DNA of 64,000 bases from Taeniopygia guttata (taxonomy: Eukaryota; Chordata; Aves; Passeriformes; Estrildidae): NCBI RefSeq assembly GCF_048771995.1, contig NC_133026.1, positions 150,993,001 through 151,057,000 on the forward strand. The letters run 5' to 3'. The notes beneath the pieces are model-generated. The model was given only the letters and a program-made list of their open reading frames with translations. It was not told the origin of the DNA and did not search any database. Shown in pieces: positions 16,072 to 63,000 of the stretch. The translations under genes and the position numbers were made by a program. The stretch's first letter is position 1. Each line of letters begins with the position of its first letter.

Positions 16072-16161
16072 GGTGTCCCCAAGCCCTTCACGGAGGTGAT
16101 CAAGGCCAACATCGGTGACGCTCACGCCATGGGCCAGCAGCCAATCACCTTCCTGCGCCAG
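16072..16161 (+). CDS. GPT: GPT exon 2 (residues 52-81)
   Basis: Thirty codons, phase 0 at both ends, between TGTCCCCAG and CAG|GTACGG. It encodes the conserved [19 protein letters not shown] region followed by QPITFLRQ, nearly identical to human ALT1 as I recall it. This N-terminal segment contributes to the dimer and the active-site entrance in ALT-type enzymes. The last 34 or so bases with the donor are copied three more times downstream. Confidence 0.95.
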
Positions 16162-60065: not shown

Positions 60066-63000
60066 GTGGGAAAAATTGGGAATTTTCGGGAATTTTTGGG
60101 AATTTTTGGGAATTTTGGGGTCTGGGAAAAAATTGGGATTTTTTTGGGTTTTTTTTGAGGGGTTTTGGGGCTTTTTTTGTGTTTTATTCTGATTTTTTGG
60201 GGATTTAATTCAGATTTTTTTTGCATTTTTTGGGACTTTATTGGGGATTTTTGGTGGATTTTATTTGGATTTTTTGGGGGTTTTTGGGGGATTTTTTTGG
60301 GATTTTATTCTTATTTTTTGGGGATTTTTTGGGGGTTTTTTTTGGGTATTTTCAGGGGATTTTTGGGGTTTTTTTGGGATTTATTTGGGATTTTAGAGGG
60401 ATTTTTTCTGGATTTTTTGGGATTTTTTGGGGGATTTTTGGATTTTATTTGGATTTTATTGAGATTTTTTTTGGGATTTTTATTGAGATTTTTTTGGGTT
60501 TTTTTTTTATTTTATTGGGATATTTGGGGTTTTTTGGAGGGTTTTTTGGGTATTTTTTGGGTATTTTTGGGGTTTTTTTGGGATTTTTTTTGGAATTTAG
60601 TGGGATTTTTTCTGGACTTTTTGGGATTTTTGGGGGGGATTTTATTCCGATTTTTTTGGTTTTTATTGGGATTTTTTGGGGATTTTTTGGGGGATTTTAT
60701 TGGGGATTTTTTTGGAATTTTATTCCGATTTTTTTGCTTTTTTTGGGATTTTTTTTGGAATTTATTGGGAGGTCACCACAACCTCTCCTCCAACCCCTGC
60801 TGCGCCAAGGTCGGAAATTTGGGGAATTTTGGGGAATTTTGGGGTTTGGGGAAAATTTGGGATTTTTTTAGGGGGGGTTTGGGGGCTTCTGGGTTTTTTT
60901 TGGGGATTTTATTTTGATTTTTTGGGGAATTTATTTTGATTTTTTTGCGATTTTATTTTGATTTTTTTAGGAGTTTTTGGGGATTTTGGGGGATTTTTTT
61001 GGGATTTTTTTGGATTTTATTTGGATTTTATTGAGATTTTTTGGGGATTTTTATTGAGATTTTTTTGGGATTTTTTTTTTTTTATTTTATTGGGATCTTT
61101 GGGGTTTTTTGGAGGGTTTTTTGGGTATTTTTGGGGTATTTTTGGGGTTTTTTTGGGATTTTTTTTGGAATTTAGTGGGATTTTTTCTGGACTTTTTGGG
61201 ATTTTTTTGGAGATTTTATTCCGATTTTTTTGGTTTTTATTGGGATTTTTGGGGGATTTTATTGGGATTTTTGGGGGATTTTATTGGGATTTTTGGGGGA
61301 TTTTTTGGATTTTATTGGGAGTGCGCCACAACCTCTCCTCCAACCCCTGCTTCGCCAAGGTCGGAAATTCCGGAATTTTGGGGGAAATTTGGGAATTTTT
61401 GGGTCTGGGAAAAATTTGGGATTTTTTTACGGGGGTTCTGGGGGCTTTTGGGGCTTTTTTTGGGATTTTATTTTGATTTTTTGGGATTTTATTTTGATTT
61501 TTGCGATTTTATTTTGATTTTTTTAGGATTTTTTCGGGATTTTTTGGGGATTTTATTCTGATTTTTGGGGATTTTTTGGGATTTTTTTTGGGAATTTTTG
61601 GGGAAATTTTTTTGATTTTATTAAGATTTTTTTGCCTTTTTGGGATTTTTTTTTTATTTTATTGGGATTTTTTGGGGATTTTTTTGGGATTTTATTGGGA
61701 TTTTTTGGGGATTTTATTGGGATTTTTGGGGATCTTTTGGGGATCATTTGGGGATTTTTTTGAGGATTTTTTGGGAATTCGTATTTTATTTTATTGGATT
61801 TTTTTTGTGGATTTTATTCTGATTTTTTGGGATTTTTTGGGGATTTTTTTTGATTTTATTGGGATTTTTTGTTTTTTATTGGGAGTGCGCAACAACCTCT
61901 CCTCCAAGCCCTGCTGCGCCAAGGTGGGGAAATTTGGGAATTTTTGGGGAAATTTGGGGAATTTTTGGGAATTTTGGGGTTTGGGGGAAAATTGGGATTT
62001 TTTTAGGGGGGTTTTGGGGGCTTCTGGGGCTTTTTTTGGGATTTTATTTTGATTTTTTGGGATTTTATTCAGATTTTTTTGCATTTTTGGGGATTTTATT
62101 GGGGATTTTTGGTGGATTTTATTTGGATTTTTTGGGGGGATTTTTTGGGGATTTTATTCTTATTTTTTGGGGATTTTTTGGGCGGTTTTTGGGTATTTTC
62201 CGGGGATTTTTGGGGTTTTTTTGGGATTTATTTGGGATTTTAGAGGGATTTTTTCTGGATTTTTTGGGATTTTTTTTGGGATTTTATTCCGATTTTTTTG
62301 GTTTTTATTGGGATTTTTGGGGGATTTTATTGGAATTTTTGGGAGATTTTTTGGGAATTTATTGGGAGTGCGCCACAACCTCTCCTCCAACCCCTGCTTC
62401 GCCAAGGTCGGAAAATTGGGAATTTTCGGGAATTTTGGGAATTTTTGGGGAATTTTGGGATCTGGGAAAAAATTGGAATTTCTTTGGGGGGTTTTGGGGC
62501 TTTTTTTGGGATTTTATTTTGATTTTTTGGGGATTTTATTTTGATTTTTTGGGATTTTATTTTGATTTTTTTAGGATTTTTGGGGGATTTTTTTGAGGAT
62601 GTTTTTGGGAATTTTTTGGGGGAATTTTTTGGGGATTTTATTCTAAATTTTTGGGGATTTTTTTAGAATTTATTCTGATTTTTTGGGGGTTTTTTTGGGA
62701 TTTTTTATGGATTTTATTGGGAATTTTGGGGATTTGGGGGGGATTTTTTTATTTTATTGGGTTTTTTGAGGATTTTATTCTGATTTTTTGGGGGATTTTT
62801 TTGGATTTTTGGGTGATTTCATTGGGATTTTATTGGGGGTTTTTTTTGGGGATTTTATTCAGATTGTTTTGCTTTTTTTGGGATTTTTTGGGATTTTATT
62901 GGGAGTGCGCCACAACCTCTCCTCCAACCCCTGCTTCGCCAAGGTCGGAAAATTCGGGAATTTTTGGGAATTTTGGGAATTTTTGGGTCTGGGAAAAATT

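Follow-up and report, generated by a model that had tools for sequence, protein, structure and literature searches.

Sequence stuttering was named on the dot chromosomes of the chicken (Hron et al., Genome Biol Evol, Feb 2026, PMC12954441), and the same paper uses the term exon stuttering for the copying of a lateral exon part, together with its splice site, through an intron. According to the accessible text of that paper, stuttering affects 115 chicken genes and 236 introns, 190 of these introns on dot chromosomes, for which the preference is strong. The copied exon part measures 20-187 nt (median 36) and is present in 1-44 copies (median 4), over 90% of the sources lie no further than 1 base from an exon border, and the stuttered introns vary strongly in length between birds. 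Our literature search returned no closer match, and the term exon stuttering was found nowhere else in the literature searched. An earlier note on the DNA described here had held that the process lacked a named description; the accessible text of Hron et al. supplies one. GPT and FOXH1, the two genes considered below, are absent from the paper's main text.

Two further systems are related more distantly. In intron gain by tandem genomic duplication the duplication carries splice sites (PMC4974935, PMC3443670), as it does here. Following the accessible text of these papers, a new intron results there, whereas in our locus the introns already present lengthen, with no change in their number. Human segmental duplications contain internal tandem repeats, half of the variable ones modifying proteins in the accessible part of the account (PMC2812944). 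The likeness lies in a minisatellite expansion that alters gene structure; those human repeats belong to recent paralogs, whereas the protein is untouched here.

We analyzed a stretch of 64,000 nucleotides from the zebra finch, Taeniopygia guttata (hereafter, the window). As in the exon stuttering described in the accessible text on the chicken, an exon edge and its splice site recur as imperfect direct repeats while the coding exon itself is intact. Differences from the chicken are the genes concerned, zebra finch GPT and FOXH1, and the presence here of unit families common to several introns. By the cut-off of the screen given below, 4/12 introns (one partial) are stuttered, and 5/12 when short edges are included, in a window that was chosen as striking; the corresponding density for chicken dot chromosomes is 190/5,572 introns in the accessible text of PMC12954441. 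New here are junctions resolved to the base, predicted stops for the decoy sites, the substitution patterns of the decoys and the alternative residues that they encode.

Repeated exon edges in GPT and FOXH1

The + strand of the window carries GPT and the beginning of FOXH1 (Table 1). The coding region is intact alongside the arrays, as the earlier note had stated: the GPT exons join into a 493-aa frame without an internal stop. Among the best 120 protein matches listed, the closest is the T. guttata alanine aminotransferase 1-like record P0002, which differs at 2 residues over the common 493, or at 3 if the leader is counted, and whose sequence tracks the real exon edges of GPT. Among the matches listed, the next full-length one is 84% identical and a partial protein from Anomalospiza (Viduidae; the zebra finch belongs to Estrildidae) 87%. 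The sample is a single genome, in which 12 introns, one of them partial, were screened.

Exact seeds recovered 37 extra edge copies in the adjoining introns of GPT and FOXH1, 28 with acceptors and 9 with donors. These figures, and the count for each edge, agree throughout with those of the earlier note, which had reported that seven GPT and FOXH1 exon edges recur with their splice sites in the adjoining intron. With the real edge included, the seeds occur 4 times for the exon 2 tail, 18 times for the exon 3 head, 6 times for the exon 5 head, twice each for the exon 8 tail and the exon 9 head, and 6 times each for the exon 11 head and the FOXH1 exon 2 tail. Every one of the 37 copies is direct and lies within the adjoining intron, and the AG or GT of the splice site is retained in all of them. 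The real exon is always at the exon end of its array. In the exact seed search of the window, no exon-edge copy was found on the opposite strand. An eighth stuttered edge is probably formed by the tail of a 5' leader exon, which is known from the P0002 protein record only and whose join was read by eye; this tail, with the donor CCCG/GTAGG, occurs three times within the interval given in Table 1.

Table 1. Exons of GPT and FOXH1 and copies of their edges, in window coordinates
Feature	Position	Strand	Details
GPT coding region, 11 exons	11731..48486	+	joined 493-aa frame, no internal stop
GPT exons 1-6	11731-11883, 16072-16161, 20667-20775, 23513-23646, 27139-27382, 28703-28782	+	
GPT exons 7-11	28902-29038, 33385-33559, 39200-39355, 42789-42901, 48396-48486	+	
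FOXH1 exon 1, coding part	53865..54116	+	matches solved FOXH1 forkhead structures
FOXH1 exon 2	59961..60065	+	matches solved FOXH1 forkhead structures
Exon 2 tail copies	16724..18184	+	n=3 (28 nt), with donor; ends 16751, 17935, 18184
Exon 3 head copies	19108..20628	+	n=17 (47 nt), with acceptor; starts 19116 to 20582
Exon 5 head copies	25876..27097	+	n=5 (65-85 nt), with acceptor; starts 25884, 26010, 26120, 26258, 27013
Exon 8 tail copy	33646..33692	+	n=1 (47 nt), donor after 33692
Exon 9 head copy	38263..38284	+	n=1 (19 nt), with acceptor; start 38266
Exon 11 head copies	46673..48042	+	n=5 (7 exon nt and about 300-350 nt of intron); starts 46678, 47029, 47332, 47687, 48036
FOXH1 exon 2 tail copies	60776..62943	+	n=5 (34-39 nt), with donor; ends 60809, 61359, 61923, 62406, 62943
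Probable 5' leader exon and two tail copies	9563..9960	+	exon 9563-9585; copies with donor near 9682, 9939

The same copies were recovered for exons 2, 3, 5, 8, 9 and FOXH1 exon 2 by BLAST with exon sequence alone, the splice site being omitted, and this search returned no copies without the exon edge. Because the exon 11 copies hold just 7 exon bases, an exon 11 copy lacking its AG would be unrecognisable by BLAST. With the settings of the published chicken screen, the 12 introns (one partial) yielded 35 exon-like hits of at least 20 nt. All 31 hits scoring at least 42.1 bits lie in the neighbouring intron at a distance of 0 from the exon border; the remaining 4, of which 3 are distal and 1 is proximal, have scores of 16.4 to 24.3. 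Since none of 200 sets of shuffled introns attained 42.1 bits (best 38.2), a chance origin of the exon-edge copies is rejected.

The combined threshold of at least 20 nt and at least 42.1 bits retains 31/37 copies and 5/7 edges, the single exon 9 copy (19 nt) and the five exon 11 copies being too short for it. These shorter copies were picked up by a 20-nt junction probe allowing up to 4 mismatches, which found the exon 9 copy (1/1, with 0.00 expected) and 4/5 exon 11 copies (0.06 expected). Across 23 edges probed in this way, the seven reported ones repeat, 15 have no match in the adjoining intron, and the exon 2 acceptor is ambiguous. The head of exon 2, GGTGTCCCCAAG, resembles a TGTCCCC minisatellite present on both its sides, and its probe matched 6 times in intron 1 and 18 times outside this intron. 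As the probe itself amounts to two minisatellite units, we left this acceptor uncounted. The Pro encoded in the exon 2 head (GVPK) is common to most aligned bird records and so is no overwrite in the finch.

Junctions and growth of the arrays

A single junction is shared by 17/17 exon 3 copies, by 3/3 exon 2 copies and by 4/5 FOXH1 copies; in the exon 3 copies it is followed by a short stretch without a recognised source. In all five exon 11 copies, agreement with the exon stops at one and the same point, 7 bases in. Four different ends occur among the five exon 5 copies, and a single founding or trimming event would not account for them. Six of the 10 distinct junctions display 0-3 nt of exon-intron homology and one displays 9 nt; for the other three (exon 3 and two exon 5 ends) we found no convincing intron source. 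The overlaps amount to 2 nt for exon 2, 3 nt for exon 8, 2 nt for exon 9, 2 nt for exon 11 and 0 nt for FOXH1. Exon 5 contributes 1 nt at 26326 and, at 26074/26075, the overlap of 9 nt, which is to an intron repeat. Random joins overlap by 0.70 nt on average, and overlaps of 0-3 nt are not clearly above this value; significant microhomology at the founder joins is therefore not upheld, and no single pathway is indicated.

Beyond the exon parts, whole units including their intron sequence are 85-93% alike in the exon 11 array and 71-88% alike in the FOXH1 array. The exon 2 copies are identical and scattered through a 10-bp array. Copies elsewhere generally carry substitutions, and spacing is irregular. 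These features suggest that the founding joins mostly formed without long homology and that the arrays then grew in tandem, at least one subsequent trim having linked an exon copy with an intron repeat. The earlier note had proposed that the arrays grow by slippage or unequal exchange in a repeat window that straddles the splice junction. The straddling window is borne out, and slippage or unequal exchange fits the growth of the arrays; on the founding joins the evidence points both ways (6/10 with 0-3 nt).

Repeat density is high in the window. GPT introns 5 (at 27426-28646) and 8 (at 33574-36139), between which three exons lie, have 151 distinct 18-mers in common on the same strand, with a longest exact match of 57 bp, and two of their unit types have + strand occurrences confined to these two introns. 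The heptamer TGTCCCC is counted 39 times in intron 1 (11884-16071) and 285 times in intron 2 (16162-20666). The exon copies are local, yet unit types are common to introns 5 and 8 and to introns 1 and 2 (TGTCCCC). A strictly local process would not predict two unit families common to different introns. As a separate observation, strongly strand-asymmetric blocks at 1-7000 and 48000-64000 have GC skews of up to +0.8 and -0.85 (2-kb windows), and the region 1-7000 holds arrays with a period near 11 bases, among the 150 of 555 arrays listed.

Decoy splice sites and the coding variation they hold

Between positions -20 and +3, 6/17 exon 3 decoy acceptors equal the real one and the others differ from it at 2-5 positions. 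The decoy donors of exons 2 and 8 are the same as the real donors, and those of FOXH1 have C at +3 in 4/5 cases. If used, 33/37 decoys are predicted to meet a stop codon inside the extension (28/32 in GPT, 5/5 in FOXH1). One of the 37 would lead to a stop downstream, two would shift the frame and reach the annotated end without a stop, and one, the exon 5 decoy at 27013, would add 42 aa in frame. An exon of at most 400 nt would result from just 5/37 decoys, those at 20410, 20496, 20582, 27013 and 33692, so that exon definition, as judged from exon lengths in the sequence, would favour the real site. Decay by the junction rule does not apply to a last exon and hence would not act on exon 11, the last exon of GPT.

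The 15 residues encoded by the real exon 3 head are unchanged in each of its 17 decoys. They include QGH, which is absent from GPT of the other aligned birds (P0121 lacks exon 3). This places the copying, or a homogenisation, of the exon 3 decoys after the QGH change. Their distinct substitutions are all synonymous (5/5; p 0.0015-0.004, in a test picked after seeing the data). The exon 5 decoys have 3/5 synonymous, position 36 being scored as synonymous on a Ser background and being also readable jointly with position 34 as P>S. The count is 0/3 for FOXH1, once three breakpoint-like mismatches on the left edge of the copy that ends at 60809 are omitted, and 0/1 for exon 8; the copies of exons 2, 9 and 11 have no substitutions within the matched exon part. 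Over all decoys, 8/14 distinct substitutions are synonymous (p about 0.02-0.04). Because the arrays other than exon 3 are mixed, coding constraint on the decoys as a general rule is not upheld.

Several decoys encode residues other than those of the real exon. The exon 8 decoy encodes Arg, as does P0002, where the window's exon 8 encodes Gln. Two exon 5 decoys encode Ser where the real exon 5 and P0002 have Pro, and Ser stands at this site in six other aligned songbirds (P0008-P0011, P0013, P0121). In the leader, both extra copies and P0002 encode Pro and the ATG-bearing copy encodes Arg. On the simplest reading, the decoys keep older or alternative exon states. A more speculative reading, to which we give only a minor chance, is that decoy arrays and real edges exchange sequence, the arrays then both recording coding variation and serving as its reservoir. 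It draws on the other exon states that the decoys hold (Arg in exon 8, Ser in exon 5, Pro in the leader) and on the exclusively synonymous changes of exon 3, as though every copy were a former real exon or had been overwritten by the exon.

Among the aligned records, that of Passer montanus GPT (P0121; predicted, partial) carries two copies of the exon 9 sequence and has neither exon 3 nor exon 8; the doubling could be either a whole-exon stutter or an assembly fault.

Origin and upkeep of the arrays

Very probably, the repeated edges are exon stuttering in a repeat-dense segment of the zebra finch genome, and the anatomy published in the accessible text of PMC12954441 agrees with this. A founding tandem duplication would straddle a splice junction and be joined mostly with little homology, in the manner of end joining or replication template switching. 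The unit and its junction would then be multiplied by unequal exchange or slippage. Only windows that spare one complete exon would be retained by selection; this may be why interior-only exon copies are absent. The spliceosome, to go by the arrangement of the sites, would keep using the real edges by exon definition, as these are nearest to the partner site and decoy products would mostly carry an early stop.

Long low-complexity introns are difficult to assemble, and an assembler or read errors could in principle have multiplied the edges. Such an artefact would have to produce substitutions between copies, irregular spacing and units that are not identical (exon 11, FOXH1; identities above) while leaving the exons intact. 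The same structure has moreover been confirmed in raw nanopore reads for chicken PHF8, according to the accessible text of PMC12954441. We regard an assembly artefact as very unlikely, and the earlier note's argument that differing copies and varied spacing speak against simple assembly duplication would seem to hold. On another account there was no tandem duplication, and an intron array that already existed received exon sequence by repeated gene conversion. This would suit the 5/5 synonymous variants of exon 3, as if written from the exon, and the identical exon 2 copies scattered in their 10-bp array. It is harder to reconcile with one junction per array common to the copies, with the homology of whole units including their intron sequence, and with the non-synonymous changes in other arrays, and we consider it unlikely.

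That the decoys are functional, either as regulated alternative edges or as sinks that tune splicing, strikes us as extremely improbable. The AG or GT kept in 37/37, the identity of the exon 2 and exon 8 decoy donors to the real ones and the 42 in-frame residues offered by 27013 would be in keeping with a function. Against this, 33/37 decoys would run into a stop within the extension, 4/5 FOXH1 donors have C at +3, and the P0002 sequence keeps to the real edges; given how few the substitutions are, retention of the dinucleotides would require no selection.

With exon stuttering as the preferred explanation, a phenomenon described in the chicken is found at high density in a songbird, in the gene of a metabolic enzyme and in that of a developmental regulator, with its junctions resolved to the base. 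How the splicing machinery chooses among near-identical neighbouring sites is put to a natural test by the 37 decoys. If decoys preserve other states, an exon's history may be partly readable within one genome. Were the exchange between decoys and real edges true, conversion from decoys in introns would account for part of the evolution of coding edges on such chromosomes.
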